A DNA stretch of 64,000 nt from Streptomyces mobaraensis NBRC 13819 = DSM 40847 (GTDB lineage: Bacteria; Actinomycetota; Actinomycetes; Streptomycetales; Streptomycetaceae), in the NCBI RefSeq assembly GCF_017916255.1, contig NZ_CP072827.1:5977501-6041500 (forward strand), in the 5' to 3' direction. The notes beneath the pieces are model-generated. The model was not told the origin of the DNA. It searched no databases and saw only the letters and a list, made by a program, of their open reading frames with translations. Shown in pieces: positions 40,239-56,148 of this stretch; within the stretch, counting starts at the first letter, position 1; each line of letters opens with the position of its first letter. Both the position numbers and the translations under genes were made by a program.

Positions 40239-40778
40239 TCAGCCGCGGCGTCTACGAGGGCGGGGCCCACCCCTGAATCCCGCCAGCCCTGACACCCTGA
40301 GCACCGCGTGGGCCGTCACCGCGTCCAGCGCGCGGGTCAGCTGCTCCAGGTCGGCGGAGCCGATGCGCAGGGTGCCGTGGGTGCGGGAGTGACGGAGGGC
40401 GGTGTCGAGGCGGTGCCAGAGCGCCGGGTTGGCGGCGAGGACCTGGAGGTCGAGCTCCAGCCGGTTGCCGGCGGCGTCGCGCAGGACGAGCCGCTGGGCG
40501 AACGCGCCGCCCCAGTGCACGGCGACCAGCCGGCCGGTGAGCACGCGGCGTCGGCGCAGCAGCCCGCGCGAGGCGAGCCAGCCGTCCCCGGCCGTCACAT
40601 GTGGCGGTAGCAGGATCGCCAGCAGCACCACGGCGAGGGCCGCCCACAGCAGCGTACGCGGGCCGGTCAGCCCCAGTGTGCCCGCGTCCAGCGCGATCAG
40701 CACCGCGAAGAGCAGGGCGGCGCAGCACGCCGCGCCCCGGGCCCTGGCCGGCCAGCCGGTGTCCGCTACGGGTCCCAT
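40239..40778 (-). CDS. Two-helix membrane protein with PH-like domain
   Basis: A 179-residue protein with two transmembrane helices (about 15-32 and 40-58: AACCAALLFAVLIALDAG, LLWAALAVVLLAILLPP) and a cytoplasmic beta domain (GLLRRRRVLTGRLVAVHWGG and RLVLRDAAGNRLELDLQVL) of the bacterial PH-like type. The start lies only five bases downstream of the SagB stop on the same strand, so it may be co-transcribed with the RiPP operon. From memory, similar proteins are widespread in Streptomyces, which argues against a specific role in the RiPP pathway; an immunity role is possible but unsupported. Confidence 0.75.
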   Translation of the reverse strand: MGPVADTGWPARARGAACCAALLFAVLIALDAGTLGLTGPRTLLWAALAVVLLAILLPPHVTAGDGWLASRGLLRRRRVLTGRLVAVHWGGAFAQRLVLRDAAGNRLELDLQVLAANPALWHRLDTALRHSRTHGTLRIGSADLEQLTRALDAVTAHAVLRVSGLAGFRGGPRPRRRRG

Positions 40779-40783
40779 ACCGC

Positions 40784-42196
40784 CTACCGTAGGCGCCGCC
40801 CGGCGGCGCTGCCCAGGACGAAGGCGCCGACGGGGATCTCGGTGTGGGGCCGCAGGCCGAGGGCCCGGGCGGGGATCTCGCCGTCACCGCCGCCCAGGAT
40901 GCAGCCGGACAGGCCCATGGCCGTGGCCACCAGGTGGAGCGTCTGGAGCAGCACCCCGGTGTTCTTCAGGGTGAGGGCGTAGGCGTGCGCCGCGTACTTC
41001 CACGACAGGCGCTTGAAGCGCGACGCCACGGTGACGTGCACGTCCGGCGGCGGCCCACCGGTCGCGGCCGTTCCCTCCCGCACCAGCGCGTCCACCTCCG
41101 CCGGGCCGCCCGGCAGGACGGTCAGCGCGTGGGCGAGCGCGTCGTAGTGGTACAGGCCGCGGCCGAGCCCGGCACAGCGGTGCACGGCCACGTACAGTTC
41201 CAGCTCGTACGCCGAGCCGGCGCTGGGGTACGGGCGGCTGGTGACCGCGTACGGCCGGTCGTGCCCGGGCCGGGCGTCCAGCACCGTACGGACACGGGCG
41301 GCGCGGTACAGCCACCCCGCCAACTCGTCCACGTCCAGCGGGCTTTCACCGTAGGCGCGGACCGATGCGCGGGACTCCAGGACGTCGGTGAACGTGCGGT
41401 CCTCGCGCCGCGCCTCGTCCGGGTCGGGACGGCGCAGGGGGATGGTGCGGCCCGGACGGGCGGGTGCGACGGGCGGGGCCGGCGCCTCGGTGGCGCGCAG
41501 GGGGAAGACGGGGCCGTAGAGGCGGTCGCGGAGGCCGGCCCGGCTGCCGTCGTGGGCCAGCAGCTCGTGGAACGACCAGCCCGGCGGGAGCGCGGCCGTG
41601 CCGGGACCGTCGCCGTGCACCGGGTGCAGAAAGCCGGCGACGTGCAGCAAGGACAGGACCTCGGTGAGCTCGTCCTCCGTCAAGTCCGGTAGCGCCGACA
41701 GGAGTTCCTGACGCGTCGTGGGCCCGGCCAAGGGGGCGAACACCGCTGCCGCCCGCGCGTCGTCGAGGCGGATCCGGAACCGGGACCGCGGTGACTCGGC
41801 CACGAGCGTGCCGTCCAGCGGGCGCAGATGAGCGGCCTGGTCGAGCGTCACCGCGCCCGGTGGCGGGGGGCCGGGGCGTGGGGCCGCCTCCGGCGCCAGC
41901 GGTACGGCGGTGGCCAGTGGGCGCGTTCCGGCAGCGGTGGCGTGATGGCACAGCGAGTGGCCGAGGTGGTCCAGGCAGTACCGGAGCAGGGCGACTCCGG
42001 TGTCCGGAAACCGGCCGGTGAGGTCATCCAGAGCCACCGGGCCCCGCGTGAGCGCCGTCAGCATCTCCGCCAGCGGCCGGCCACCCGGGCCGGCCGGCGT
42101 GCTGCCCCAGCGGTGGCGCACGGTCACGAGCCCCTGATCGTCACCGTCGTGGTGCACCGTCGTGCCGGGTGCCAGGGACAGGAAGAGCGCACTCAC
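40784..42196 (-). CDS. SagB-type FMN dehydrogenase (azoline oxidase)
   Basis: A 470-residue protein with an N-terminal domain of about 230 residues and a C-terminal nitroreductase fold of the SagB/McbC type. Visible motifs are SRASVRAYGESPLDVDELAG, RPYPSAGSAYELELYVAVHR, GLYHYDALAHALTVLPGG, KNTGVLLQTLHLVATAMGLS and GCILGGGDGEIPARALGLRP. It oxidises thiazoline and oxazoline rings to azoles using FMN. GTG 42196 overlaps the stop of the elimination-domain gene as GTGA. The longer upstream reading frame is only a shadow of that gene. It is the last modifying gene of the minus-strand RiPP operon. Confidence 0.9.
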   Translation of the reverse strand: MSALFLSLAPGTTVHHDGDDQGLVTVRHRWGSTPAGPGGRPLAEMLTALTRGPVALDDLTGRFPDTGVALLRYCLDHLGHSLCHHATAAGTRPLATAVPLAPEAAPRPGPPPPGAVTLDQAAHLRPLDGTLVAESPRSRFRIRLDDARAAAVFAPLAGPTTRQELLSALPDLTEDELTEVLSLLHVAGFLHPVHGDGPGTAALPPGWSFHELLAHDGSRAGLRDRLYGPVFPLRATEAPAPPVAPARPGRTIPLRRPDPDEARREDRTFTDVLESRASVRAYGESPLDVDELAGWLYRAARVRTVLDARPGHDRPYAVTSRPYPSAGSAYELELYVAVHRCAGLGRGLYHYDALAHALTVLPGGPAEVDALVREGTAATGGPPPDVHVTVASRFKRLSWKYAAHAYALTLKNTGVLLQTLHLVATAMGLSGCILGGGDGEIPARALGLRPHTEIPVGAFVLGSAAGRRLR

Positions 42197-43206
42197 GGGC
42201 GGCTGTCCCCCAGGGCGGCGGCGGCCCGTGCCGCGAAGTGGCGCAGCATGGCCTCCTGAGCGGCATCCAGGCCGAGCCGATTGCACATCAGGTGGGCGCA
42301 CCGGTTGGCGGTGAGGGCCGTGCGGGGGCTGGGCAGGGCGAGCAGCGAGGGGTCGTCGCGCAGGGCGGCGAGGTCGGGGGCGAAGGCACCGGCGCGCTCC
42401 AGGCCCGCGAGGCTCGCGTGGAGCCGCGCGACGCTGTGGTGCCACGCGGCGAGCGGCCCGTCGCCCGGCGCCGCGGGGACCGGTGTGGCCAGCAGCCCCG
42501 CCGCGCGCCGCAGCAGACCGGGGCGCGCGCGCTCGTACGCCCGGTCGAAGCCCTCCGTGTCGTACGCGGCCCCGAGCATGCGGCGCCACGACTCCGCCCC
42601 GGCCCGCAACGCTGCCAGGCGCTGCCCGGCGTCCGACGCCGTCACGGTCCACGTCAGCAGCAGGACCGCGAAAGCGGCCGACAACCGCTCGGCGGGGGAG
42701 GGGCGGCGGGCGAGCAGGGCCCGGGCGCAGTCGCTCGCCTCGACGAAATGCCGCTCGACGGCGGCGAGGGAGGCGCCGGTGCCGTAGCGGTCGTGCTCGG
42801 GCCGGTACGGGCGGATCTGCGCGGTGTCGTGCAGGCCGCGCCACGGCTCGTGGGCCGGCAGGTGCTCCTGCTGCGCCGCCGCCGTGGCGAAGCGGTGGTA
42901 GGCCGCCTCGTCGACCGTGCACGGCGAGGGGTGGCGGGCCAGCCAGTCGTTCCACCGCTCCACGAGGTGGCCGGCGGCATCCCCGAGGGGTTTCGCGGAC
43001 CGGACGCGGACCCGCAGATGGGGGCCGCCCTCCCAGTAGCGGAGGAAGAAGTGGCCGCCGACGGTCCCGGTCCGGGCGAGCCGGCCGAGTTCGGGTACGA
43101 CGGCGTCGAGCAGCAGGACGTCGAGGTCGCCCTGGTGGAAGAGGTGCACGGCCGTCCAGTGGCCGGACGGCGGTGAGATGTCGGGTGAGGCGTCAGGCGC
43201 CGGCAC
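42193..43206 (-). CDS. LanB C-terminal/elimination-domain protein (TbtC- or GodG-like)
   Basis: A 337-residue protein of the lantibiotic dehydratase C-terminal (SpaB_C, thiopeptide-type) family. It starts with HWTAVHLFHQGDLDVLLLDA and GGHFFLRYWEGGPHLRVRVR, has RYGTGASLAAVERHFVEASD, and closes with HLMCNRLGLD, the conserved NRLG element of glutamate elimination domains. It removes glutamate from glutamylated Ser/Thr to give dehydroamino acids. Pyridine synthases of thiopeptides share this fold; only one such protein is present, and the partner LanB requires an elimination enzyme, so I assign elimination. GTG 43206 overlaps the LanB stop. Confidence 0.82.
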   Translation of the reverse strand: MPAPDASPDISPPSGHWTAVHLFHQGDLDVLLLDAVVPELGRLARTGTVGGHFFLRYWEGGPHLRVRVRSAKPLGDAAGHLVERWNDWLARHPSPCTVDEAAYHRFATAAAQQEHLPAHEPWRGLHDTAQIRPYRPEHDRYGTGASLAAVERHFVEASDCARALLARRPSPAERLSAAFAVLLLTWTVTASDAGQRLAALRAGAESWRRMLGAAYDTEGFDRAYERARPGLLRRAAGLLATPVPAAPGDGPLAAWHHSVARLHASLAGLERAGAFAPDLAALRDDPSLLALPSPRTALTANRCAHLMCNRLGLDAAQEAMLRHFAARAAAALGDSRP

Positions 43207-45763
43207 GGTGCTCCCCGGGGAGGCCGGACGGGGGTCCGGCGGGCAGTTCGATGACGAGTTCGGTGGTGTACGGGCCCGTACCGGGGCCCTGGTCGGCGGC
43301 CGGGTCGGGCAGCGCTTCCTCGATGTGGACGACGGTGTCGGGCGCGGTGAGCGCGCGCGTGAAGGCGGCGGTCAGCAGGGGCGAGGCGAAGTCGACGTAG
43401 GCGGGCTTGTAGCCCTTGTCCGCGAACGGGTCCGGTGCCGGCCCCCCGGCCGGGCGGGTCCGCGCGAAGCAGCGCTGCGGAAGGCCCACCGCGCGCTGCC
43501 AGGCGAGCAGCCGCAGCAGGTGGTCGTGGCCGTGCTCGCCGGGCCGCGGCAGCGGTACGGACGCGGCCCGGGTGAGCCAGCCGCGGCGGCGCAGGACCAC
43601 GTTCCCGGCGCGGAGGCGGGGCAGGTGGCGGATGCCGTCGGCCGGCACGTCGTCCGTGAAGGGGCCCGGCTGGAGGGGGTGCCCGGTACGAAAGAGGGTG
43701 TGCGGGTCGCCGAACAGCCGCAGCACGGTGGCGAGCGGGGGTGGCAGCAGCTGCGGGCTCATCAGCCCGAGGTGCACGGGGACGAGGTCGACTGCTGGGC
43801 GCGGCGCGTGGAGGGCGGGCAGGCCGGTGGCCGTGTCGACGTGCACCGTCACCTCGCCCAGCGCGATGCGCTGGTGGGCGGGGCGGCTGTCGCGGGTGAA
43901 GGGGTGGTCGAAGACGTGCGGCACGGTGGGGCGGCGCAGGTTGGTGTTGGAGGCGTACAGCCCGCCGAGGTCGACCGGGAGCGGGTCGCATACGGAGGCG
44001 GGGGCGGCGGGGCCCGGCGGCACCGGGCGGCCCGTGGCGCGCGCGTGGATGCGGTCGAGGCGGCCCTGCCAGTGGCCGTGCCCGGCGGTGACGGCGTTGA
44101 GGACGGCGTACGGCCGCCCGTCCGGGCCGGCCAGCGGCTGCACGTAGTGGGCGAGGGACAGCGGCGGACGCGGGAGGGCGAGGCCGGTGGGCAGGTCACC
44201 GGCGTGCAGGGCGGCCGTCACGCGGCGCCGCTCGCCGGCGAGCCGGCGCAGGACGGGCAGGGGGCTCGCGGCCAGCAGCTCGTCGTCCGTGCCGAATCCG
44301 GGGTCGAGCAGGTCGCGTACGCGCTGCGCGGCGGGGGACTGCTCGTCCTGGAGCTGGTGCAGGACGAGCAGCAGCGGCACCCGGGCGGCCGGGCCGTGGC
44401 GTTCGGTGAGCCACGCCGCGGCGGCGTGCCGGGCGGGCAGGTCGCGGTCGAGGACCGCCAGGGCGCGGCCCGTGGCGGTGAGATCGGCCAGCAGGGGCCG
44501 CCAGTGCGGATGACCGAGCGTGGCGGCGTCACCGCCGAGCACGCTGTCCTCGTGGAACGGCCGGCGCTCGTAGCTCTCGCGCGGGGCGGGAAGGCCCAGG
44601 GTGTCCTCGACGGACCGCAACCGCTCGCGGACGGCACGGTCACGGCGGCGACGCTCACTGTGGGTGGACGCGGACTGATGCCGCGTCAGTTCCATGCGCA
44701 GGCCGTGCAATGCGGCGCCTACGGGCGCGAGTTCCGGCGCCGCCTCCTCCAGCCAGGCGGTCAGCGCCGTCAGGTGGCAGGGCGCCGCGTCGTCCAGCGG
44801 CAGATCCTCCTGGAGGATGCCGGCGGCCAGGAAGCGCCCTACCGCGGGCCCGGCCTCGGCGGCGGTGAGCCCGTCGACCTGCCGCACGGCCTCCATCAGC
44901 CGGGACAGCTGTCCCGGTGCCGGCAGGGCGGTGATCCTCGCCCCGGCGGTGGGCGGGATCAGGCGTATCGCCTCCGGGGAGGCGTGCAGGGCCGGATTGG
45001 AGCGCAGGCGCAGGGTGGCGCGCAGTTCGGGGCGGGTGCGCAGCAGGGCGTCGGCGATGCGGCGCAGGCGCGCCAGGTTGATCTCCGCCTGCACCGGTCG
45101 CCGAGTCATGTCCCCGAAGTCCAGCCAGGGCCCGGACGGGCGCCACCGGGCCTGCCCGGTGGCGGTGAAGGTGCTGTACGGGCTGGTCTTCGCGGCCGCA
45201 CGGGACAGGTAACGGGCCAGGCTCACCAGGACCTTGGTGCCCGGCGCTCGGCCGTGGGGGGTATCGAGCCAGCGTTCCAGGACGTCGTCGAGGCCCCGGC
45301 TGCCGTGCAGCAGCCCCTGCCGGAAGGAGGGGTCGGTCAGCGGACCGCGCAGCGCCCCGAGCACGGCCTCGGTCTCGCGCGCGAGCGTGTCCGCCAGCGC
45401 CGCGCGGCGCTGTTCCTGGCGGGCCCGTGCCGCGAGCCAGCCCTCGACACGGGCGGCGAGCGGCGCCGGCAGCGCGGCCTGTACGGCGGCGTCCCACTCG
45501 GTGGTACGGGGAGTACGGCCCTGGTGGGCGGCGCGGCGCAGGCCGATGACGCGGGGGCGCGGCGCCGGGTCGGGCAGCGCCCCGATGACGGCATGCAGCG
45601 CGTCGGCGACGGCCCGGCCCTCGGCGTCGATCCGTTCCTGCTCGGCGAGGACGGTCTCGGCCAGGGCGTGGCTTTCGGGGGTGTTGAGGGCGGCCAGCAC
45701 GGACCGGGGGACGCCGGCGACGCGTAGCACCGGGTCGGGCGGCATGGCGGCAGCGGTGTTCAC
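43193..45763 (-). CDS. LanB N-terminal glutamylation enzyme (tRNA-dependent, TbtB-like)
   Basis: An 856-residue protein matching the lantibiotic dehydratase N-terminal domain. Hallmarks are VLVSLARYLSRAAAKTSPYS followed by TFTATGQARW (the KxSPxST motif), RSNPALHASPEAIRLIPP, and a C-terminal region with GNVVLRRRGWLTR. It uses glutamyl-tRNA(Glu) to glutamylate Ser/Thr side chains of the precursor. GTG 45763 is set by GTGA overlap with the upstream stop; upstream in-frame codons belong to the neighbouring gene. The family in thiopeptide and goadsporin pathways is split, as here, with elimination on a separate protein. Confidence 0.9.
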   Translation of the reverse strand: MNTAAAMPPDPVLRVAGVPRSVLAALNTPESHALAETVLAEQERIDAEGRAVADALHAVIGALPDPAPRPRVIGLRRAAHQGRTPRTTEWDAAVQAALPAPLAARVEGWLAARARQEQRRAALADTLARETEAVLGALRGPLTDPSFRQGLLHGSRGLDDVLERWLDTPHGRAPGTKVLVSLARYLSRAAAKTSPYSTFTATGQARWRPSGPWLDFGDMTRRPVQAEINLARLRRIADALLRTRPELRATLRLRSNPALHASPEAIRLIPPTAGARITALPAPGQLSRLMEAVRQVDGLTAAEAGPAVGRFLAAGILQEDLPLDDAAPCHLTALTAWLEEAAPELAPVGAALHGLRMELTRHQSASTHSERRRRDRAVRERLRSVEDTLGLPAPRESYERRPFHEDSVLGGDAATLGHPHWRPLLADLTATGRALAVLDRDLPARHAAAAWLTERHGPAARVPLLLVLHQLQDEQSPAAQRVRDLLDPGFGTDDELLAASPLPVLRRLAGERRRVTAALHAGDLPTGLALPRPPLSLAHYVQPLAGPDGRPYAVLNAVTAGHGHWQGRLDRIHARATGRPVPPGPAAPASVCDPLPVDLGGLYASNTNLRRPTVPHVFDHPFTRDSRPAHQRIALGEVTVHVDTATGLPALHAPRPAVDLVPVHLGLMSPQLLPPPLATVLRLFGDPHTLFRTGHPLQPGPFTDDVPADGIRHLPRLRAGNVVLRRRGWLTRAASVPLPRPGEHGHDHLLRLLAWQRAVGLPQRCFARTRPAGGPAPDPFADKGYKPAYVDFASPLLTAAFTRALTAPDTVVHIEEALPDPAADQGPGTGPYTTELVIELPAGPPSGLPGEHRAGA

Positions 45764-46797
45764 GACAGGGCTCCGGGGACGAGGACGGGAACGCGGAGGC
45801 GTGGTTCGGGCGCCGCGTGGCCGAGGGTGACGTGACAGGCCACCGCGCCCTCGCCGGGCTCCACCCGCAGCAGGGCTGCCGCCGCGGGTGTCGGGCGGTC
45901 GTCGCACCAAGCCGTCAGCCCCGTCTCGTGCGCGGCGACCCGCAGACGCAGTGCCTCGGCCGCGCGCAGCGGCAGTTCGCCCAGCAGATGCACGGTGACG
46001 GGCGCGTCGGCGAGGGCCGCGACGGCGGCGGGGCCACTGCGCGTGAGGACGTACGCCAGGGAGGCGGTGTCGCCCGGCCGCACGGGCTCCGGACCGTCTG
46101 TCACCGGCCCGTACAGACCGGCCTCCAGGCCCGCGACGTCCCGTACGGTCACCCGGTACGGTGCCCGTACGCCGGCCGCGGCCAGTACCCGGACCAGCTT
46201 CTCGCGGGTGACCGCCGCACCGGTACGCAGGTGCGCCGGGGGGCCGGTGGGCAGGTCCGCCAGCACGGCGTCGAGCCCGGCGCCCGCGGCGGCGGGCGGT
46301 GGGGCGGCCGGCCCCCCGTGCAGAAGCAGCGTGCCGGGCCCGGCGCCCGACTGCCGCGTACACAGTCCGCAGGCCGCCGCCACCAGGGCGGCCCGGGCGG
46401 CCCGTTCGCCCGTGTCGTCACCGGGCAGGTGCAGCACGAGGCCCGCCCCGCTCTCCGGGAGGGCGCCGGCGCCGGGTACGAGAGCGTGGGCGACCGGGTC
46501 GTAGGCGTACCTGCCCCGGGGCACAGGGGCGTCATCCCCTGCGGCGAGCAGCGGCCGTGGGACGTGGGCGTGGGCGAGCCCCGGGGACGTACCGGGGCGG
46601 GCTTCGAAGGGGCCCGGTCCACAGGCGTGCCCCAGGACGGCGGCCAGGTGGTGCGGCGTCACCGGGCCGGACGCCGGGGGACAGCCGCACGTCCGGGCGG
46701 CGCGCAGCGCGTCACCGGCCGTGCCCAGTGGCGGGAGCGGCGGTAGGGACAGCGGGAGGCCGGGCGGGGGCGTCATGAGCGTCACGGACCTCGTCAC
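45760..46797 (-). CDS. Unassigned RiPP-cluster protein, possibly a degenerate nitroreductase-like protein
   Basis: A 345-residue protein starting at GTG 46797 (GTGA overlap; ATG 46776 also possible). I do not recognise it with certainty. The segment VTPHHLAAVLGHACGPGPFE and, later, RGRYAYDPVAHALVPGAGAL, follows the order seen in SagB proteins (helix, then YxYDxxxHAL). The FMN-binding residues are not evident, and its C-terminal half (TVHLLGELPLRAAEALRLRV) is different. Cys occur in RTCGCPP and CGLCTRQS. It lies between the YcaO fusion and LanB and overlaps both, so it is almost certainly part of the pathway: a scaffold, an inactive oxidase subunit or a new tailoring enzyme. Confidence 0.55.
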   Translation of the reverse strand: MTRSVTLMTPPPGLPLSLPPLPPLGTAGDALRAARTCGCPPASGPVTPHHLAAVLGHACGPGPFEARPGTSPGLAHAHVPRPLLAAGDDAPVPRGRYAYDPVAHALVPGAGALPESGAGLVLHLPGDDTGERAARAALVAAACGLCTRQSGAGPGTLLLHGGPAAPPPAAAGAGLDAVLADLPTGPPAHLRTGAAVTREKLVRVLAAAGVRAPYRVTVRDVAGLEAGLYGPVTDGPEPVRPGDTASLAYVLTRSGPAAVAALADAPVTVHLLGELPLRAAEALRLRVAAHETGLTAWCDDRPTPAAAALLRVEPGEGAVACHVTLGHAAPEPRLRVPVLVPGALS

Positions 46798-48662
46798 GGG
46801 AACGGGTGCGGGTCGGTGGACAGCTCGCCGGTGAGCCGGGGCAGGCCCTCGGTGCGCCGCATCAGGTGCCCGTACGTCACCGGGGCGGTGCCGGGGACGA
46901 CGACCTTGACCGCCGTCAGGTCCAGCGCCGTGAGCTCGGCGGTCGTCTGGTCCACGGCGAGCACGTCGAACCCCGTGTCGAGGTAGCGGCGGACCAGGTC
47001 GCGCAGGTCGTCCGTCAGGTCGTCGTGGTGCCGGGGCAGCCGCCGGCCGCGGTGCACCTCGGCGAAGCCGCGGGGCGGCCGGCCCTCCAGGAGGAACGCC
47101 AGCCGCCCGGAGAACTCGGGCGCGGCGGCCACGAGGGCGTGGTCGGCGGGGTGGGTGATGCCGGAGGGGTCGAGGGCCAGCTGCCGGGCGCGTTCCTGCC
47201 GGGCCGGGTAACGGGCGGCGAGCAGGGACAGGTGCGGGCCGAGCTCCATCAGCGCGCGCACCGCGGCCTGTTCGGGGTCGGGGTGGGCGCCCGCGGCGAG
47301 GGCCGCGCGCGGCGTGCCCGGCCGTTGGTCCTCGTCGACGGCGAGCGCCACGACGCACGGGATCTCCTGCTCCAGGGTGGCGTCGAGGAGGTGGACGCGG
47401 TGCCCGGTCAGCTGGGCCAGGTGCTCCACGAGGAGCGGCACGGTGCGGTCGCGCGCGCTGCCCGGGTCGATGGCGTCGAGCGGGGCGCGCCGGTACCACG
47501 CCGTGAAGAAGGCGTCCCGCTCGGCGACTTCGAGCAGGCCGTGCAGTTGCGCCTCCTCGGCACAGCTGCCGAGCGCGCAGCCGTTGGAGACCTCGAAGAC
47601 GAATCCCCGGTCGCCCGGGTCCCGCTCGTCCGCGGAGAGGAAGTACGCGTACGAGCGGGGCAGCAGCACCGGCCGCGCCCGCCCGTGGGACCACGCCCAC
47701 ACCCACTCCGTCACCCGGTCCTCCGCGAACCGGCGGAACGGGAAGCCCGGCACGTCGTAGTGGCTGTCGGGGTGCAGACCCAGCGTGCGCGGGTCGACGG
47801 CGTCGTCGCGTACGTCGGCGTACGCGGCCCGGACCACGGTGCGGCGGGCCCGCGGCCGGACACTCGCGTAGCGTTCGGCCCCTTCGAGGAGCGCGGCGGC
47901 CGTCGCCGTGTCCCGGTCGGGGCCGGCGCCCAGGCCCGCCTCGGCCTCGCCGCCGTCCGGCAGCGCGAGCGGTGCCCGGGCCAGCGGGACCGCCGCCGTC
48001 GCCTGCGTCACACCGCGCACCAGCCCCGTCTCCGGGTCGGCCAGGAGCGCGCGGAGCAGCGCGGTGTCCGGCCGCCGCAGCCGCAGGCCGGGGCGCGGCT
48101 TGGGCCGGGGCACGAGCGCGCGCGGCACGGCGGTGGGCGCGTCGTCGGGGAGCCCACCGCACACCGGACAGCACGGGTCGGGGAGGAAGGCGTGCGTGCT
48201 CACGTCGAGGGCACGCAGGCCGACCACCGTCATGGAGCGGGCCGCGCGGGCGTCGGGGGCGGTGAGGCGCTCGGCCACGAGGCGGGCGGTGAGGGTGACG
48301 GCGGGCGCGGTGAGCAGGGGCGAGGGCAGCGCGTACAGGTCGGGGGCGTGGCCGAGCACGGCCCGGGCGACGGCCCGGTCCGGTGCGTGTGCGCGCCGCA
48401 TGCCGAGGCAGCGGTGGCAGCCGGGCACGCCGGGCCGTACGACCGGCCCGACCACCGCGCGGTCGCCCTCGGTCCACACCGGCAGGAAGGGCACGCCGAG
48501 CGCGGTCGCCCGCCGCAGGGCGCCGTCGTGCTCGTCGTCGGTGGCGCGGGCGTCGGTGACCGTTACGACGGCGGCCACCGCGGGCCGCCCGCCGAGGACC
48601 TCGTCGACCGCGTGGTGCAGCACGCCGCCGTCACCCGACACGAGAACGTCAGTGCGCGCCAA
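46794..48662 (-). CDS. Cyclodehydratase: E1-like C-protein fused to YcaO (TbtG-like)
   Basis: A 622-residue fusion. The first ~190 residues are the E1/ThiF-like part, with RTDVLVSGDGGVLHHAVDEV, PVVRPGVPGCHRCLGMRR and a second CPVC near DPCCPVCGG, a structural zinc site. The rest is a YcaO domain: LRALLADPETGLVRGVTQAT, EVSNGCALGSCAEEAQLHGL, LEVAERDAFFTAWY, and a Pro-rich C-terminus DPHPFP that organises the ATP site. It converts Cys/Ser to azolines with ATP. The start is uncertain: TTG 48662 keeps the first beta strand and overlaps the upstream gene; GTG 48641 would remove seven residues. Confidence 0.88.
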   Translation of the reverse strand: MARTDVLVSGDGGVLHHAVDEVLGGRPAVAAVVTVTDARATDDEHDGALRRATALGVPFLPVWTEGDRAVVGPVVRPGVPGCHRCLGMRRAHAPDRAVARAVLGHAPDLYALPSPLLTAPAVTLTARLVAERLTAPDARAARSMTVVGLRALDVSTHAFLPDPCCPVCGGLPDDAPTAVPRALVPRPKPRPGLRLRRPDTALLRALLADPETGLVRGVTQATAAVPLARAPLALPDGGEAEAGLGAGPDRDTATAAALLEGAERYASVRPRARRTVVRAAYADVRDDAVDPRTLGLHPDSHYDVPGFPFRRFAEDRVTEWVWAWSHGRARPVLLPRSYAYFLSADERDPGDRGFVFEVSNGCALGSCAEEAQLHGLLEVAERDAFFTAWYRRAPLDAIDPGSARDRTVPLLVEHLAQLTGHRVHLLDATLEQEIPCVVALAVDEDQRPGTPRAALAAGAHPDPEQAAVRALMELGPHLSLLAARYPARQERARQLALDPSGITHPADHALVAAAPEFSGRLAFLLEGRPPRGFAEVHRGRRLPRHHDDLTDDLRDLVRRYLDTGFDVLAVDQTTAELTALDLTAVKVVVPGTAPVTYGHLMRRTEGLPRLTGELSTDPHPFP

Positions 48663-50472
48663 GGAGCACCACCCGGGCCACGAACGGGGCGTGCGCCGCG
48701 AACGCGCTGTCGTGGTCCAGCGGCACCGCGTACGCGGTCCAGCCCCGCGCCGCCAGCCGGTCGGCGAGGAGCCGGCACCGGCCGGCCGGGTCCAGGCCGG
48801 GCAGGGCGGCGGGCACCGGTGCCGGCGCGCCGGTCCGCACGGCCGGCGTCGTACCGGCGGGCGGGCACGCGCCCTGTCGGCGGGCGAGCAGGGCCCGCGC
48901 CGCCTCGGCGAACGCCTCGGCGGCCGGCGCGGCGCACCCGACGGCGACCCCGTCCTCCGCGACCAGCGCGACGACGGGCGCGCCCAGGCCCCCGGAGACG
49001 TCCAGGACGGGGGGAAGGGGGCCGAGGGCGTCCACCAACCGCCAGTGCCGGGCCGCCTCACTGTGGTGCGGCAGCACGGCCGGGTCGAGCACGGGGTACG
49101 GCCCGGCGTCCGGCGCCGCCATGCGCCGCAGGGCCAGCTGCCGCACGGCACCGAACAGCGCCGCCTCGACGGCGGCGTCCCAGCTCTCGGCACAGGCGGT
49201 GCCGGCGGGGGCGGGCGTGGCGTGGGCGGCGGGGGCCCGCTCGTCGAGCGGGAGAACGACGGAGGCGGGCAGGGGCTCCGTACGGCCGTCGGCCAGTCGT
49301 TCGGCGAGGAGGTGGTCCGTCGCCGTCCGCTCCACCGCCGCCGCCAGCGCGTGGGCGGCGGCCGCACGGCGCAGTGCCTCGTCGTGGGCGGCGCGCGGGT
49401 CGAGGGCGGCGCCGGTGACCGTGCCGCCGCCGGGCAGGTCGCAGCGGGCCACCGTCAGGGGGATCTGTGTGCCGTACGCCGTGGTGGGCGGCCCGTAGGG
49501 GCCCGTCAGTCCGTCGGCACAGGCCGACAGGCGCCGGGTCAGGTCGTCGGGGGCGAGGGCCGGCGCTTCGCGCAGTTCCTTCAGGCGTACGGCGAAGTCC
49601 TTGTCCGCCGCTCCGGCCGGGGGTGCTGCCAGGACGCGGTGCCGGTGGGAGGCGAGCGTTTGCCAGTCGATGCGCAGGACGCCGGTGTCGTCCTCTTCGG
49701 GTATGCCCGTCAGCAGCCGGAACACCGCCAGGGCCACGCGCCCGCCCACCAGAGCCGTCGCGGCCGCCGTGGGCTCCGGGGCCTGCGCGGGCGCGGGACG
49801 GTGCCGCAGGCGGTGCAGGACGTCGGCCCAGCGCTGGGCACCGTCGTACGGCAGCAGCCAGCAGCCGTCGTACCGGGCCAGGGCGCGGAACAACGGCGTA
49901 CCCGTGGCCCGGCACGCGTCCTCGATCGCGGCGACCGCCCGTACGCCGTCGGGCCCTTCGCCGTCGCCCGCGTAGACGACGGCGTCCACCCGCCCGGCCG
50001 CTTCCCGCGGGTCCGCGGCGTGCACGCGGCGCAGCCCGCACGCGAGCAGGGCGTGCCGGGCGGCGTCGGCGAGGGGGCCGTCGCCGGCCGACAGGACACG
50101 CGCGGCGCGGTAGCGCTCGAAGTGGTGCTCGGGGGAGTCGAGCCAGTTCCCGACGTACGCGATCTCGGGTGCGTGGACCCGCAGTTCGTCGTCGGTCAGG
50201 CCGTGCGGCAGCGGATCGGCTGCCTCGCGGACGAAGCCGTGTGCCCGGAGCGTGTCGAGCAGGCGCAGCGCGACCGTCCGGTGGCCGTCGGGGAGGGGCG
50301 CCAGCGCGGCGTCCACGTCCTGCCGGCCGTCGAGCAGGGGCCGTAGCCGCTCCAGCCACGCGTGGACGGTCGCGCCGCGGAGGGCCACGGCGGACGACGG
50401 GCCCAGGACCGCGGCACCGTCGGCGGTCGGCGCGTACCGCACCTGCGGTGCCAGTGTCAGTCGGCGGCCCAC
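48649..50472 (-). CDS. Ocin-ThiF-like leader-binding protein (TbtF-like)
   Basis: A 607-residue protein with GTG 50472 and the ribosome site GGGGGAGGAAG. The N-terminus (LAPQVRYAPTADGAAVLGPS) and the following helix resemble an RRE wing for leader binding. Next comes a ThiF-like part (PLADAARHALLACGLRRVHA). The second half carries a degenerate YcaO-like arrangement: YGPPTTAYGTQIPLTVARCD and AHDEALRRAAAAHALAAAVE. In thiopeptide and goadsporin systems this class of protein binds the precursor leader and activates the cyclodehydratase. It is encoded next to the precursor and before the YcaO fusion, the expected order. Confidence 0.82.
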   Translation of the reverse strand: MGRRLTLAPQVRYAPTADGAAVLGPSSAVALRGATVHAWLERLRPLLDGRQDVDAALAPLPDGHRTVALRLLDTLRAHGFVREAADPLPHGLTDDELRVHAPEIAYVGNWLDSPEHHFERYRAARVLSAGDGPLADAARHALLACGLRRVHAADPREAAGRVDAVVYAGDGEGPDGVRAVAAIEDACRATGTPLFRALARYDGCWLLPYDGAQRWADVLHRLRHRPAPAQAPEPTAAATALVGGRVALAVFRLLTGIPEEDDTGVLRIDWQTLASHRHRVLAAPPAGAADKDFAVRLKELREAPALAPDDLTRRLSACADGLTGPYGPPTTAYGTQIPLTVARCDLPGGGTVTGAALDPRAAHDEALRRAAAAHALAAAVERTATDHLLAERLADGRTEPLPASVVLPLDERAPAAHATPAPAGTACAESWDAAVEAALFGAVRQLALRRMAAPDAGPYPVLDPAVLPHHSEAARHWRLVDALGPLPPVLDVSGGLGAPVVALVAEDGVAVGCAAPAAEAFAEAARALLARRQGACPPAGTTPAVRTGAPAPVPAALPGLDPAGRCRLLADRLAARGWTAYAVPLDHDSAFAAHAPFVARVVLLGAH

Positions 50473-50566
50473 GGTCGGCTTCCTCCCCCAGATCTGTGGG
50501 CGGTTCGGGAGTGCGAGGCCGGGCCCCGGCGGCGCGTCCTCCGCACCGCCGGGGACCGGCCCGGTA

Positions 50567-50722
50567 TTACGACAGCGCGCAGGAGCTGCTGGCGCTGCGA
50601 CAGCAGGCGTACGCCCAGGCGGCGTTGTCGTCGCTCTCGACGGCGTCGTCCTGCACGACCTCGAACATCTCGTCGCCGAGCTGCTCCAGGTCGAGGAGGG
50701 CTGCGTTCGCTGCGTTCTCCAT
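50567..50722 (-). CDS. RiPP precursor peptide
   Basis: A 51-residue acidic peptide with a good ribosome site (GAAAGGAG) at ATG 50722. The leader, residues 1-35, contains LLDLEQLGDEMFEVVQDDAV, similar in pattern to thiopeptide leaders (LDL..LP..VFEL.D..VAVES). The C-terminal part reads WAYACCRSASSSCALS, with Cys at 40, 41 and 48 and Ser at 43, 45-47 and 51: substrates for azole formation and dehydration. The ASSSCA stretch recalls the lactazole core, but the Ser needed at the start of the core for pyridine formation is absent. It lies 94 bases before the leader-binding gene and is divergent from the YcaO-TfuA genes. Confidence 0.85.
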   Translation of the reverse strand: MENAANAALLDLEQLGDEMFEVVQDDAVESDDNAAWAYACCRSASSSCALS

Positions 50723-51017
50723 GGACCGCTCCTTTCGTCCGATCAACGATGAACAGCGCATTGATAACCCGGGACGCGCGACAGCAGCCACCCATGCCGC
50801 ATACTCGCGCGCCCCACCCCGCACTCGCCGCCGCACCCCGTCCGACCTGCGTATTCACCGACGTCAACCTCCCTGCTTTCCCTCCGTCTTCGATTCCTCT
50901 CACCTTCGCCTCCCGCATTTTTTCGGCAGTCTTCATGGCCCTCTTCCCGTCGCCTTCCATCGCGTTGCGGTGCCGCGTCCGATGCTGGAGGCGGACCACC
51001 GAGCGGAGGAGGGCCGG
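50723..51017. promoter_or_regulatory. Divergent promoter region of the RiPP cluster
   Basis: The 295 bases between the precursor gene (minus) and the YcaO gene (plus) must hold promoters for both arms. It is less GC-rich than the flanks, with pyrimidine-rich stretches (CCCTGCTTTCCCTCCGTCTT) on the plus strand. I could not identify a convincing -35/-10 pair. GGAGGAGGG at 51005-51013 is the ribosome site of the YcaO gene. Confidence 0.5.
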
Positions 51018-52196
51018 GTGAGGAAGGTTCATTTCGACGGCACGCACCGGGTGCGGCGCCCCGAGGAGACGTGGGCCGTCATCGACGGCCGGCGAAGCGC
51101 CTTCGGCGTCACCCGGGTCGCCGACGTGACGGGGCTGGACCGGCTGGGCGTACCGGTGGTGATGGCGGTCCGCCCGGCGGCGAAGACGCTCACCGTCTCG
51201 CAGGGCAAGGGCACGTCTCTGCTGCTGGCCCGGATCTCCGCCGTCATGGAGAGCGTGGAGCTGTGGCACGCCGAGTACGCCTGCCCGGCCGCCGAGGTGA
51301 CGCGCGTTCCCGCCCGCGAGCTGGAGCTGCCGTACGACGTCACGGACCTCCAGCAGCACCACGGGAGCCTGCTGGGTGAGCACACCCCGCTGGACTGGCT
51401 GACCGGCAAGAACGCCGTGACCGGCGCGCGGACCTTCGTCCCCCGGTCGTACGTCGCCATGGACTACCAGGTGTCCGACGCCTGGGAGCCCCCGCTGCTG
51501 CACGGCTCGACCAACGGGCTGGCCGGCGGCAACAGTTACGACGAGGCCGTCACGCACGCGCTGTACGAGGTCGTCGAGCGCGACTGCACGGCGGCGATCG
51601 GCTCGGTGCCCGTCACCGAGCGGCGGCACGTCGACCCGGCGAGCGTCGACGACCCGATGTGCGCCGGCGTCCTGGAGCGGATGGCCGACGCGGGGGCGTG
51701 GGTGGAGATCGTGGACGTGCCCAACCGCTGGGGGCTGCCCTGCTTCGTCACCTACGTGTGGTCCGAGGACTTCCCCGCGCTGGCCGTCGGTTCGGGCGTG
51801 CACAGTTCCGCCGCGGTGGCCCTCAGCCGGGCGGTCACGGAGTCGGCGCAGAGCCGGCTCACCGCCATCGCCGGCAGCCGCGACGACCTGGCCGACGCGC
51901 TGTTCCCGCACGAGCCGTCCGTCCCCGGTGAACCGCCCGTCACGGCGGGGGAGGTCGTGCCGTGGAAGGACGTCTCCGCTGCCGGGCCCGACTTCGCCGA
52001 GGACACCGAGGAGACGCGGTGGCTGGCCGAGCGGGTGCTGGAGGTGACCGGTCGGCCGCCGGTGGTGGTCGACCTCAGCACCGAGGAGGACTTCAGCGTG
52101 GTCAAGGTGGTCGCCGCCGGGCTGGAGTTCGACGGCCGGCACGAGATCACCCGGCCCCTGTCCGCCCCCGCGCCGCTCCTGAAGGAGGCATCGTGA
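51018..52196 (+). CDS. Stand-alone YcaO protein of the TfuA-associated (thioamidation) type
   Basis: A 392-residue YcaO enzyme. Nucleotide-binding features are SQGKGTSLLLARISAVMESV with ELWHAEYA, and HGSTNGLAGGNSYDEAVTHA followed by LYEVVERDCTAA. It lacks the E1-like domain of azoline-forming YcaO fusions and lacks a Pro-rich C-terminus. Directly after it, with GTGA overlap, lies a TfuA-type gene, and YcaO-TfuA pairs install thioamides in ribosomal peptides and methyl-coenzyme M reductase. So this second YcaO probably replaces a backbone amide oxygen of the precursor with sulfur. A role in azoline formation alongside the fusion cannot be excluded. Confidence 0.85.
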   Translation: MRKVHFDGTHRVRRPEETWAVIDGRRSAFGVTRVADVTGLDRLGVPVVMAVRPAAKTLTVSQGKGTSLLLARISAVMESVELWHAEYACPAAEVTRVPARELELPYDVTDLQQHHGSLLGEHTPLDWLTGKNAVTGARTFVPRSYVAMDYQVSDAWEPPLLHGSTNGLAGGNSYDEAVTHALYEVVERDCTAAIGSVPVTERRHVDPASVDDPMCAGVLERMADAGAWVEIVDVPNRWGLPCFVTYVWSEDFPALAVGSGVHSSAAVALSRAVTESAQSRLTAIAGSRDDLADALFPHEPSVPGEPPVTAGEVVPWKDVSAAGPDFAEDTEETRWLAERVLEVTGRPPVVVDLSTEEDFSVVKVVAAGLEFDGRHEITRPLSAPAPLLKEAS

Positions 52197-53587
52197 CGAT
52201 CCACGTGTTCCTCGGCCCCACGCTGTCCCCGGAGGAGGCCCGGCAGGCGGTCCCCGGTGCGGTCGTGCACCCGCCGATCCGCCACGGCGACCTGCTCGCC
52301 CTGCACCTGGGCCCCGGCGACACCGTCGTCGTCATCGACGGGGTGTTCCACCAGACCGCTCCCGTGCGGCACAAGGAGATCACCGACGCCCTGCGCCGCG
52401 GCGCGCGGGTGATCGGCGCCTCCAGCATGGGCGCGCTGCGCGCCGCCGAGCTGTGGCAGTGCGGCATGGAGGGCGTCGGCCTGGTCTTCGGCATGTACGC
52501 CCGGGGCGACCTGGACGCCGACGACGAGGTCGCCGTCGGCCACCTTCCGTCCGGCGACTACCGGGCGCTGACGGTACCGCTGGTCAACATCCGCTGGACG
52601 ATCGCCAACGCGGTCGCCGAGGACGCGCTGACCGCCGGCGCCGGCGACGTGCTGCTGGAGGTGGCGCGTTCCCTGCACTACACCCAGCGGTCCTGGGGCG
52701 CGCTCGTGCACACCGCGAGCCGGACGCACCCGGAGGCGGCCGAAGCCGCCGTCGCCCTGCGCGCGTTCGCCGAACGCCGGCCCGACCTGTCCGACCTCAA
52801 GCACAGGGACGCCCTGCTGGCCCTGGCGCACGCCCGCGAGCCGCGCCCCGGCGGACCGGTCCCGGCCGACATCCCGGCCCCGCTGGTGCCCCGGACGATG
52901 TACCTCGAACGGTGGCGCGCCCTGCACCGCCCGGCCACCGCCGCCCCCGGCGGGCAGGTCGCGGACGTGGGCGAACTGGATCAACTGCGCTTCCAGCAGT
53001 TGTACGCGCCGGACTTCCCGGGGCGCTACCGGCGGTTGGCGCTGCGCCGCATCGCCGGCGGCGGGGCGGGGCGTGCCGACGTCGCGTCGACGGACGACTC
53101 CGCGCTGGCCGACGCCGCGCTCAAGGCGGCGGAGGAGCGCGGTCTCACCGCCGACCGCCTGCCGGACGGCGCCTGGGCCTCCTGGCTGACGGAGGAGGAA
53201 CGGGCCTCCGGCGACGCCCGGAGCCGGCTGCTCACCCTCCTCGTCCGGTCGTTCCGCGTCGGGCCCGGAGCCGCACCGTTCAACGACGTGCCCGCCGAGC
53301 TGCGGGACGAGGACGGGGAGTGGGTGCTCAGCGCCGGCGCGGTGGCCGCCGCCGACCGGCTCAACACGCAGATGGCCCGCACCGGCAGACGGCGCACCCC
53401 GCGGCACCTGCCCGGCGCCCTGGTACGGCGCCACCTCGCGGACGTCTGGCGTGCCACCGGCCCGGACGGGCTCGCGGCCGCCGCCCACGACCGGGGCTTC
53501 TTCTCCCTGGAGGAGGCCGAGGAGGCCGCACGGCGCTTCGTCCTGCTGCACCGCGTCGGGGCCGCGCCCCGCACGGCCGCCGGCTGA
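52193..53587 (+). CDS. TfuA-like protein (YcaO partner for thioamidation)
   Basis: A 464-residue protein. The N-terminal TfuA domain is clear: IHVFLGPTLSPEEARQAVPG, VVVIDGVFHQTAPVRHKEIT, GARVIGASSMGALRAAELWQ and GMEGVGLVFGMYARGDLDAD. The C-terminal ~240 residues are helical and Ala/Arg-rich, with no known motif, and are longer than in minimal TfuA proteins. TfuA is thought to help deliver sulfide or activate the YcaO in thioamide formation. The GTG start overlaps the YcaO stop. The gene ends 11 bases from the convergent response regulator gene. Confidence 0.88.
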   Translation: MTIHVFLGPTLSPEEARQAVPGAVVHPPIRHGDLLALHLGPGDTVVVIDGVFHQTAPVRHKEITDALRRGARVIGASSMGALRAAELWQCGMEGVGLVFGMYARGDLDADDEVAVGHLPSGDYRALTVPLVNIRWTIANAVAEDALTAGAGDVLLEVARSLHYTQRSWGALVHTASRTHPEAAEAAVALRAFAERRPDLSDLKHRDALLALAHAREPRPGGPVPADIPAPLVPRTMYLERWRALHRPATAAPGGQVADVGELDQLRFQQLYAPDFPGRYRRLALRRIAGGGAGRADVASTDDSALADAALKAAEERGLTADRLPDGAWASWLTEEERASGDARSRLLTLLVRSFRVGPGAAPFNDVPAELRDEDGEWVLSAGAVAAADRLNTQMARTGRRRTPRHLPGALVRRHLADVWRATGPDGLAAAAHDRGFFSLEEAEEAARRFVLLHRVGAAPRTAAG

Positions 53588-53598
53588 GGGCCAGGGGG

Positions 53599-54264
53599 TC
53601 AGGTCCCGTCTCTCCGGGGCGACGGGATGAGGGAGGAGGCCACGGCCTTGTTCACCGCGTCCATGCGCGAGACCGCGCTCAGCTTGCCGTAGATGCTGCG
53701 CAGATGGCGCTTCACAGTGCCCTCGGCGATCGACAGGCGGCGCGCGATCTGGGCGTTGCTCAGCGCCTCCGCGGCCAGGGCGAGCACCTCGCGCTCCCGG
53801 GCCGACAGACTCTCGCCGGGCGCCCGGTCGAGGCGGTCGAGCCCCTGCCGTGACACCGACAGGATCACGTGGCCGGGGCCCCGCTCGACCTGGACGCTGT
53901 GGATGGCGGCGATCAGTTCGTGCCGCGTCGACCCCTTCACCAGGTACGCCCCGGCGCCCAGGCCGAGCAGCTCCCGGGCCAGCGCGACGTCGTCGTGCAT
54001 GGTGAGCACGACGACTCGGCAGCCCGGCACGACGGCGCGCAGCTGCGCCAGCGTCTCGCGGACGCCCTGGCCCGGCATCTCGACGTCGAGGAGGACCACG
54101 TCGGGGCGCAGCTCGGCGGCCTTCTCGCACGCGTCCTTGCCGTCGTGGGCCTCGCCGGCGACCTCCAGGCCGGGCGACGCGGCGAGGATCTCGGCGACGC
54201 CCTCGCGGAACAGCGTGTGGTCGTCGGCCAGCAGGATCCGGACGGGCCTAGCCGCGCTCGCCAC
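53599..54264 (-). CDS. NarL/LuxR-family response regulator
   Basis: A 221-residue regulator. The receiver domain has ADDHTLFREGVAEIL, the phosphoacceptor Asp in VVLLDVEMPGQGVRE and Lys in GAYLVKGSTRHELIAAI. The LuxR-type DNA-binding domain has LSAREREVLALAAEALSNAQ and RRLSIAEGTVKRHLRSIYGK. GTG 54264 overlaps the histidine kinase gene by 17 bases; a longer start at 54309 is less likely. With the kinase it forms a two-component system beside the RiPP cluster, which it may control. Confidence 0.92.
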   Translation of the reverse strand: MASAARPVRILLADDHTLFREGVAEILAASPGLEVAGEAHDGKDACEKAAELRPDVVLLDVEMPGQGVRETLAQLRAVVPGCRVVVLTMHDDVALARELLGLGAGAYLVKGSTRHELIAAIHSVQVERGPGHVILSVSRQGLDRLDRAPGESLSAREREVLALAAEALSNAQIARRLSIAEGTVKRHLRSIYGKLSAVSRMDAVNKAVASSLIPSPRRDGT

Positions 54265-55060
54265 TGGCGTTCCCGTGGGGCCTGTCGAGCGGTACGCGGA
54301 GCCGGACACGGGTGCCGTGCCCGGGGCGGCTGTCCACGGTCAGGCTGCCGCCGAGAAGCGCGGCACGCTCGCGCATGCCGAGGAGACCGCCGTGCCGGCC
54401 GGACGCGGCGGGATCCAGGTCCGTGAAGCCGCGGCCGTCGTCCTCCACGGTGGCGCGCACCTCGGCCGGGGTCACCTCCACGGTGACGGTGATGCGGCCG
54501 GCGTGGGCGTGGCGCAAGGCGTTGCGCTGGGCCTCGCGGAGTACGAGGCGGACCTCGCGGGCGGTGCGGGACTGCATCAGGGACTCGTCGCCGGTGACCA
54601 GGACGCGTACGGTGCCGGGGACTCGGCCCGTGGTGCCGAGGTCGCGGGCCGGATCGGACGCGAGGGGGAGGGCGTCGGGGGTGCCGGCTGTCGTGCCGGC
54701 GCCGGCCGTATCGGTCTTGTCGGCCGTGTCGGTCTTGTCGGCTGTGCCGGCGGTCCGTGTGGTCCCGGTGGGTTCGGCAGGGGCGCGTAATCCGGCCATG
54801 ACGGTGCGCAGGTTCTCCAGCGAGGCGCGGACGGCGTCCCGGGCCGCCGCGAGCTTGCGTTGTGCCAGCTCCGGGCGGGTGTCGCGGTACATGTCGTACA
54901 GCTCGAAGGAGGTGAGGGCCGAGCCGAGGCCGGCGGCGACCTCGTCGTGCAGGTCCCGGGCGATGCGACGGCGTTCGCCGGCCAGGGTCCCGGCCTCCGC
55001 CGCGGCGTCCGGGGAACGGTCCACGGGGCGCTCCGTCACCATGCCCGGCACCCCCGCCAC
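54248..55060 (-). CDS. Soluble histidine kinase (HisKA_3 type)
   Basis: A 270-residue kinase without membrane segments or sensor domain. It has the HisKA_3 motif ERRRIARDLHDEVAAGLGSA (phospho-His) and a GHKL ATPase part: LREAQRNALRHAHAG (N box), VEDDGRGF (G1) and GLLGMRERAALLGG (G2). A Thr/Ala/Gly-rich stretch with the repeated TADKTD unit separates the two. Because no sensor is present, input must come from a partner protein or from a cytoplasmic ligand. The gene is upstream of the response regulator on the same strand. Confidence 0.9.
   Translation of the reverse strand: MAGVPGMVTERPVDRSPDAAAEAGTLAGERRRIARDLHDEVAAGLGSALTSFELYDMYRDTRPELAQRKLAAARDAVRASLENLRTVMAGLRAPAEPTGTTRTAGTADKTDTADKTDTAGAGTTAGTPDALPLASDPARDLGTTGRVPGTVRVLVTGDESLMQSRTAREVRLVLREAQRNALRHAHAGRITVTVEVTPAEVRATVEDDGRGFTDLDPAASGRHGGLLGMRERAALLGGSLTVDSRPGHGTRVRLRVPLDRPHGNASGERG
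54708..54743 (-). repeat. 18-base tandem duplication in the histidine kinase gene
   Basis: Two adjacent 18-base units, differing at two positions, encode the repeated hexapeptide TADKTD in the linker between the phospho-His helix and the ATPase domain. The linker is otherwise Thr/Gly/Ala-rich, so expansion here is probably neutral. Confidence 0.7.
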
Positions 55061-55377: not shown

Positions 55378-56148
55378 ATGAACGTGCTGATCGTCGAGGA
55401 CGACGACGGAGTGGCCGAGGCGCTGGAACGCACGCTGGTGGCGCACGGCTACGGGACGCACCGCGTCGGCACCGGCGCAGAGGCCCTGGACCGGCTCGGT
55501 GAGGAGCAGTTGGTCCTGCTCGACCTGGGCCTGCCCGACCTGGACGGCTTCGAGGTGTGCCGGCGGATGCGGAAGGCGTCCTGCGTACCGGTGATCGCCC
55601 TCAGCGGCCGGAGCCGGGAACTCGACCGGGTGCTGGCCCTGCACCTGGGAGCCGACGACTTCGTCGCCAAGCCCTTCAGCCGCTACGAGTTGGTGGCCCG
55701 CATCGAGGCCGTCCTCCGCCGGGCCGCGGGCTGCGTCCGGCACGGCACCGCGCCCGCCGCGGAGACGGTCCCGGACGCCACCGCGCCGTCGGCCACGTCG
55801 CCGGGATGCGGGTCCGGGCCGGGGGCGCGCCGGGCCGGGCCCGACCCGCTGGAGGCCGGCCCTCTGCGGGTCGACCCGCGCACACGGAAGGTATTCGTCC
55901 GCGGTCAAGAGGTACGGATCACGCGCAAGGAGTTCGACCTGCTGCTCCTGCTGATGCGGGAGCCCGGCACGGTGATGGAGCGCCAGGAGATCATGTCCCG
56001 GGTGTGGGACGAGAACTGGTTCGGCTCCAGCCGCACCCTCGACGTCCACGTGCGCTCCCTGCGCGGCAAGCTCGGCGACCGGCAGTGGATCGAGACGATC
56101 CGCGGCGTCGGCTACCGGCTGGCCGTGCCGGCGACCGCCCAGGCGTGA
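55378..56148 (+). CDS. OmpR/PhoB-family response regulator (orphan)
   Basis: A 256-residue regulator. The receiver has [18 protein letters not shown], the Asp in [16 protein letters not shown], and [20 protein letters not shown]. After a linker of about 45 residues rich in Ala/Pro/Thr comes the winged-helix domain: [39 protein letters not shown], and [20 protein letters not shown] with VGYRLAVP. No kinase gene is adjacent on the same strand, so it is an orphan or works with a distant kinase. The unrelated permease gene follows after 667 bases. Confidence 0.93.

Follow-up and report, generated by a model that had tools for sequence, protein, structure and literature searches.

A conserved Streptomyces cluster joins azole and dehydroalanine genes to a YcaO-TfuA pair and may make a linear thioamidated peptide

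We analysed a stretch of 64,000 nucleotides from Streptomyces mobaraensis (the window; bases 5977501-6041500 of the 7.57 Mb single-contig genome, G000), in which positions 40784-53587 hold a gene cluster for a ribosomally synthesized and post-translationally modified peptide (RiPP). A sequence-only reading of this region had listed a precursor, an Ocin-ThiF-like protein, an E1-YcaO fusion, a split LanB, a SagB protein and a divergent YcaO-TfuA pair. Analysis of open reading frames (ORFs) together with Pfam and NCBIfam domain searches confirmed every gene on that list (Table 1), to which one overlooked operon gene, at 45760-46776, has to be added. We find a genuine cluster, complete and conserved in relatives, and the main point of the sequence-only reading holds up; we consider below whether the product is a linear peptide that carries azoles, dehydroalanines and a thioamide.

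Table 1. Genes of the cluster, flanking genes and related pairs in other genomes. RBS, ribosome-binding site; L numbers are loci in other genomes.
Feature	Position	Strand	Basis or remark
Precursor peptide, 51 aa	50567-50722	-	AAAGGAG RBS upstream; weak match to thiazolyl_B (E 0.0056, under the cut-off)
Ocin-ThiF-like protein, presumed leader-binding cyclodehydratase partner	48649-50472	-	Partial TIGR03693, below cut-off
E1-YcaO fusion, azoline-forming cyclodehydratase	46794-48656	-	TIGR03882, TIGR03604, PF02624; start not fixed
Nitroreductase-fold operon protein, probably a degenerate SagB-type dehydrogenase	45760-46776	-	Predicted structure
LanB glutamylation half (Ser O-glutamylation)	43193-45763	-	PF04738, 4e-20
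LanB elimination half (dehydroalanine formation)	42193-43206	-	PF14028, 1e-39; motifs, tree, profiles
SagB-family FMN azoline dehydrogenase	40784-42196	-	TIGR03605, 2e-42; PF00881; PF22767; start estimated
TfuA-type YcaO, presumed backbone thioamidation	50982-52196	+	PF02624, 5e-56; TIGR00702
TfuA, presumed sulfur-delivery partner of YcaO	52193-53587	+	PF07812, 4e-43
Flanking LuxR-type response regulator and histidine kinase, possibly with a regulatory role	53599-55060	-	Pfam
Membrane protein adjoining the operon, to which it probably does not belong	40239-40778	-	Homologue distribution
YcaO-TfuA pairs without the operon, open frames	L115 10022-12612; L111 9995-12528; L038 18798 to L039 (G073); L126 16386-18961 (G560)

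The E1-YcaO fusion scored above cut-off with TIGR03882 (1e-29), PF02624 (2e-81) and TIGR03604 (5e-88) and ends in PHPFP, which we take to be the PxPxP end of azoline-forming YcaO enzymes. The plus-strand YcaO has a different end, and the NCBIfam models that fit it best are TIGR00702 and the McrA-glycine thioamidation model, the latter with a score below cut-off. No Pfam match was obtained for the Ocin-ThiF-like protein, which matches TIGR03693 (E 6e-13) over residues 19-152 only, scoring 47.8 bits where the cut-off is 561.9. It is 25-34% identical to its matches in seven thiopeptide-type loci; the E1-YcaO fusion is 39-43% identical to thiopeptide-type homologues and the glutamylation half 30-32% identical to thiopeptide glutamylation proteins. 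LanB-type dehydratase domains were the only ones detected among the ten proteins scanned, which include no dehydrazole-type, LanM-like DUF4135 dehydratase. As the sequence-only reading had noted, no dedicated transporter or leader peptidase could be recognised in the scanned genes of the 40239-55060 interval.

The precursor contains a leader block, LLDLEQLGDEMFEVV, that is identical in all five precursors compared (the window and four other Streptomyces), and a likely core of 17 residues, AWAYACCRSASSSCALS. Over the five Streptomyces the core follows the consensus AWAYACC[RH]SASSSC[AR]LS; five pairwise comparisons gave 0-2 amino acid replacements in it (R/H, A/R), its other changes being synonymous, and the spacer drifts. 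The core resembles that of lactazole in Trp2 and in an SSSCA pattern, spaced one residue wider, and has Ala, in the window as in S. mashuensis, where lactazole has Ser1. In lactazole, Ser1 and Ser12 form the ring and an S1A replacement abolishes thiopeptide formation (PMC7210931; this and the other papers are cited from excerpts of their text).

The nearest named copy of the cluster is that of S. mashuensis (G035, locus L112; 97% identity over the plus-strand YcaO), in which each of the ten genes of the 40239-53587 interval recurs with 83-97% identity. A contig search with a profile of four aligned YcaO copies returned seven loci, four of which carry the operon as far as they extend: those of S. 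mashuensis, Streptomyces sp. NBS 14/10 (L109), S. milbemycinicus (L110) and S. lilacinus (L113). The S. milbemycinicus locus holds only the precursor, the Ocin gene and part of the E1-YcaO gene, with the eliminase on another contig, and the S. lilacinus locus has assembly gaps and a SagB gene that is cut off. The three loci without the operon belong to S. triticagri (L111), LHD-70 (L115) and Micromonospora (L114; 43% identity, used as outgroup). An eliminase of more than 60% identity was found only in S. mobaraensis and S. mashuensis among 392 genomes of the genus, and only in S. mobaraensis among 297 genomes of the family. The recurrence of the gene set with a near-identical precursor in S. 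mashuensis and three further Streptomyces indicates more than chance. No operon was seen without the YcaO-TfuA pair, most of the named loci having been located through YcaO.

Whether the product can be a linear peptide depends on the only SpaB_C-type protein in the cluster, which the sequence-only reading had held not to be a pyridine synthase. Reference pairs of eliminases and pyridine synthases were taken from thiopeptide-type loci of other genomes and from a second S. mobaraensis cluster, which, recalling the compound name, we take to be cyclothiazomycin-like. In a tree of 12 proteins (four operon proteins, four eliminases and four pyridine synthases), the operon proteins and the eliminases lie on one side with support of 100/100; three eliminases (genomes G136, G063, G125) and two pyridine synthases (G389, G136) were left out because their gene calls are cut or shifted. 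The operon proteins retain the eliminase-type motifs RYWEGGPH, Y..EH..YG and RCAHL and do not have the pyridine-synthase forms HWLRGPH and VNYLYxHL. The window protein and three orthologues scored 145.8-166.1 bits against an eliminase profile compared with 35.4-43.3 bits against a pyridine-synthase profile. Tree, motifs and profiles agree, and on this basis we assign the lone SpaB_C protein as an eliminase and not a pyridine synthase.

SpaB_C-type proteins were also noted elsewhere in two of these genomes. The second RiPP cluster of S. mobaraensis (L095, ~8845-19901; G000:C1, ~7348.8-7359.9 kb) is of thiopeptide type, with an eliminase and a pyridine synthase, and its precursor ends in SNCTSRGTPASCCSCCCC. 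In S. mashuensis, locus L140 (G035:C8, ~196646-197737) encodes a SpaB_C-type protein; a LanB-like frame lies upstream of it, and the two may belong to a thiopeptide-like cluster of their own.

The overlooked operon protein matches neither Pfam nor NCBIfam, and a PDB sequence search with it returned nothing at E up to 1. An AlphaFold2 model built from four sequences (mean pLDDT 69.6, pTM 0.77; medium confidence) matched nitroreductases in Foldseek, with 3eo7 as the best hit (E 1.8e-5), and also the azoline oxidases BmdC (2e-4), McbC (1e-3) and ThcOx (6e-3), at query TM-scores of 0.3-0.4. Compared directly, the profiles of this protein and SagB gave a weak match (5.8% probability). Orthologues are present in S. 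mashuensis, NBS 14/10 and S. lilacinus, and no strong match was obtained in the 296 other family genomes searched; in the thiopeptide-type locus of G125, a 543-aa gene occupies the same position between YcaO and LanB. The model suggests that the protein is probably a degenerate relative of the SagB-type dehydrogenases. We rejected the idea that it is a second SpaB_C protein on account of its predicted nitroreductase fold.

Judged by its genes alone, the locus has the make-up of a thioamidated RiPP cluster, in that adjacent YcaO and TfuA genes with intact conserved motifs lie next to a precursor, and such a motif-intact pair adjoins the operon in all five genomes. TfuA matches occur in 52 of 295 genomes of the genus, with more than 50% identity in four (S. 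mobaraensis, S. mashuensis, S. triticagri and G073); 11 of 394 family genomes pass E 1e-60, and identity exceeds 50% in two (S. mobaraensis and G560). Near relatives of the pair that lack the operon, in S. triticagri, G073, LHD-70 and G560, allowed a comparison with the operon-linked pairs. No eliminase match was found in the genomes of the first three, and G560 has only a LanB of 29% identity. Searches with tblastn found no precursor beside these pairs, nor was a look-alike seen by eye among the RBS-preceded small ORFs in part of the flanks of the LHD-70, S. triticagri and G073 pairs.

As a yardstick we used 11 outgroup pairs (10 genome loci and the Micromonospora locus). In YcaO, 58 columns do not vary across the outgroup and the window, and the operon-linked YcaO proteins keep all of them (40 of the 40 readable ones in S. 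lilacinus), whereas 7 are changed in LHD-70, 8 in S. triticagri, 11 in G073 and 5 in G560. All four operon-less near pairs have lost YcaO Lys76 (to Q, G, R or A) together with at least one of Glu90, Glu196, Arg200, Glu287 and Gln290; the window protein keeps the outgroup-invariant Lys76, Glu90, Glu287 and Gln290. The TfuA proteins of LHD-70, S. triticagri, G073 and G560 have lost 2, 2, 5 and 5 of 39 columns, with Ser78 lost in each, compared with none of 39 in any operon-linked TfuA. Both Lys76 and Ser78 are kept in all five operon-linked and all 11 outgroup pairs. The window YcaO matches Methanocaldococcus jannaschii MJ1094 (6pe3); in this alignment the lost columns fall in the segments GKG, MEAIE, LEIIER and TEVAQ of MJ1094, which presumably bind nucleotide and Mg. 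In E. coli YcaO, replacing ATP-binding residues impairs thioamidation (PMC13063428). The losses suggest that the operon-less near pairs are probably dead enzymes; since their reading frames are still open, they may serve another use. A literature search on YcaO pseudoenzymes associated with RiPPs gave no paper. The pattern of loss appears to tie the active pair to the operon, though possibly through a single evolutionary loss, and lends comparative support to a link that had at first simply been assumed.

We propose, with a probability of roughly 0.6, that the cluster converts the core into a linear azole/dehydroalanine/thioamide peptide. The proposal builds on gene content, eliminase identity, conservation and co-occurrence, which the analysis shows, and from these we infer all of the chemistry, including the order and the sites of the steps. 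The Ocin-ThiF-like protein would bind the invariant leader block, and E1-YcaO would make azolines from Cys6, Cys7 and Cys14, and probably also from one of the Ser residues in the SSSC block. SagB, perhaps with the nitroreductase-fold protein, would oxidise these to azoles of the thiazole or oxazole type. The glutamylation and elimination proteins would then turn neighbouring Ser residues into dehydroalanine; that azoles come before dehydroalanine is indicated by studies of goadsporin and lactazole (PMC5303826, PMC7210931). The divergent YcaO-TfuA pair would insert sulfur into one or more backbone amides, most likely in the conserved AWAYA block, which offers no Cys, Ser or Thr to the azole and dehydration enzymes. 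No pyridine ring would be formed, and leader removal and product export would fall to host enzymes. A bolder version, which we regard as doubtful, is that this is the first linear RiPP with azoles, dehydroalanines and a thioamide in AWAYA, derived from a lactazole-like lineage minus the pyridine ring, and that the operon-less pair is kept, catalytically dead, for a new non-catalytic job.

Several observations weigh against the proposed linear thioamidated peptide. That four genomes carry a near pair without the operon loosens the link between the two. Five other outgroup-invariant YcaO columns (P36, L38, L230, A288 and P379) differ in the four fully readable operon-linked YcaO proteins, and in a leave-one-out comparison the outgroup proteins themselves deviate at 0-7 YcaO and 0-5 TfuA columns, none of them Lys76 or Ser78. 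In the tree, which does not include G560, the LHD-70, S. triticagri and G073 sequences group as a single clade (94/99 and 93/96), so their motif losses may represent one loss followed by decay, and three of the five operon loci were located through YcaO, so that the sample favours co-occurrence. The operon might accordingly yield a goadsporin-like azole/dehydroalanine peptide without a thioamide, with YcaO-TfuA acting on another substrate and adjacency reflecting no more than a shared locus; operon-less relatives of the pair in LHD-70 and S. triticagri have the same response-regulator and metK-like genes close by, and in G073 the same response regulator adjoins such a pair. We consider this unlikely, because motif residues retained in each of the operon-linked pairs are missing from the operon-less ones, which argues against a common catalytic role independent of the operon, and because we saw no precursor-like ORF next to them.

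Further points of this kind concern ring closure. The NCBIfam TbtD/PbtD pyridine-synthase model also matches the window eliminase, at 79 bits (cut-off 325), and among solved structures the protein is closest to the pyridine synthase TbtD (E 4.5e-6), with no eliminase chain in the list of matches. The cyclothiazomycin-like cluster of S. mobaraensis encodes a true pyridine synthase (G000:C1:7348844-7350037; 719.7 bits to the pyridine-synthase profile), and the related S. mashuensis protein of L140, on another contig, scores 84 bits to that profile, being classed by eye only and not by the two-profile comparison. The SSSC block is as in lactazole, and in three of the five precursors (S. lilacinus, NBS 14/10 and S. 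milbemycinicus) a Ser, a possible stand-in for Ser1, directly precedes AWAYA. The product could thus be a thiopeptide-like macrocycle after all, made by a pyridine synthase from elsewhere in the genome or by a dual role of the lone SpaB_C protein. However, it is precisely in these three genomes that a whole-genome profile search yielded no pyridine synthase but only the operon's eliminase (41-45 bits), for which reason we think a synthase acting in trans unlikely, and the window and S. mashuensis cores, with Ala instead of Ser1, also speak against a macrocycle, which we judge highly improbable. Closure by another bond, for example between a Tyr, Trp or Cys side chain and dehydroalanine, would make use of nucleophiles and dehydroalanines that would coexist in the core, perhaps aided by the nitroreductase-fold protein, which has no known role and the narrow distribution described above. 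This too seems very unlikely, given that domain searches recognised no cyclase and that the fold suggests a dehydrogenase relative.

The LuxR-type regulator and histidine kinase are kept beside the pair in S. mashuensis and S. lilacinus and also in LHD-70; since LHD-70 lacks the operon, these genes go with the locus and not with the operon itself. An OmpR-like response-regulator gene (window 55378-56148) likewise lies near members of the YcaO-TfuA clade with and without the operon (L113, L115, L111 and L039), which suggests, G560 excepted, that the pair has a preferred chromosomal neighbourhood. In G073, a YcaO 29% identical to the window E1-YcaO (L038, 13469-15781) lies ~3 kb from the probably dead pair, with ketosynthase-like genes 8-13 kb away. 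The membrane protein that adjoins the operon has homologues in 14 of 41 genomes, its own included, and none in NBS 14/10; given this distribution, a dedicated immunity function is thought unlikely. The neighbouring region of the window, 18967-39494, is a polyketide-type cluster with an ornithine cyclodeaminase family gene, an acyltransferase, a double ketosynthase, a GNAT gene (22549-24735), a GCV_T-like gene, an AMP-ligase and an aminotransferase. We rejected it as part of the pathway, since it does not adjoin the RiPP cluster in S. mashuensis, where the 34 kb around that cluster show only 30-33% matches of gene 28311-29324.

With eight proteins and five natural precursors, the pathway would allow an in vitro test of the order of the three modifications and of the use of a single leader by two YcaO enzymes. 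The pairs that we regard as dead would serve as natural mutants, showing which residues go when the substrate goes.

Among known systems, goadsporin shares with this cluster a YcaO cyclodehydratase, an FMN dehydrogenase and a split LanB (GodF, GodG), and its product is a linear azole/dehydroalanine peptide; it differs in its peptidase-ABC transporter GodB and acetyltransferase GodH, neither found here, in lacking a separate Ocin-ThiF-like protein, and in that the excerpted text mentions no TfuA (PMC5303826). Lactazole and the cyclothiazomycin-like thiopeptides share the Ocin-ThiF and YcaO proteins, the glutamylation and elimination proteins and, for lactazole, Trp2 and SSSCA (PMC7210931), whereas our cluster lacks the pyridine synthase, has Ala for Ser1 and adds YcaO-TfuA. 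Thioamidated thiopeptides (saalfelduracin, thiopeptin) combine YcaO-TfuA with azole and dehydration enzymes as here (PMC8120280) but need the cycloaddition enzyme that is missing here, a distinction drawn from their published description. Azoles, dehydration and YcaO-TfuA are likewise predicted together in a Nakamurella dehydrazole cluster, the one TfuA cluster mentioned in the excerpts of that paper, which uses a DUF4135/LanM-like enzyme in place of a split LanB (PMC10676384). A RiPPER survey of actinobacterial TfuA clusters does not bring up goadsporin or dehydratases in its main text (PMC6511847), and a 2026 preprint lists as characterised thioamidated classes the thioviridamide-like compounds, thiovarsolins, thioamidated thiopeptides, chimeric lanthipeptides and its own (PMC13174530). 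A literature search with the precursor sequence gave no paper, and no characterised linear azole/dehydroalanine/thioamide peptide without a pyridine was found in the open-licence PMC literature, as judged from titles and the openings of abstracts. To that extent the sequence-only reading was right that the combination is not known from characterised compounds. The gene combination itself is not: Malit et al. (2021) described in silico TfuA clusters, labelled LAP, most with a fused YcaO and a split LanB 'as observed in goadsporin biosynthesis', which have the same YcaO-TfuA, fused YcaO cyclodehydratase, dehydrogenase and split LanB as here, although none of the four species names searched occurs in the main text (PMC8120280). 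Because this combination had already been predicted, the cluster is less novel than first thought; what the present analysis adds is the family, the core, the nitroreductase-fold gene and the probably dead YcaO-TfuA relatives.

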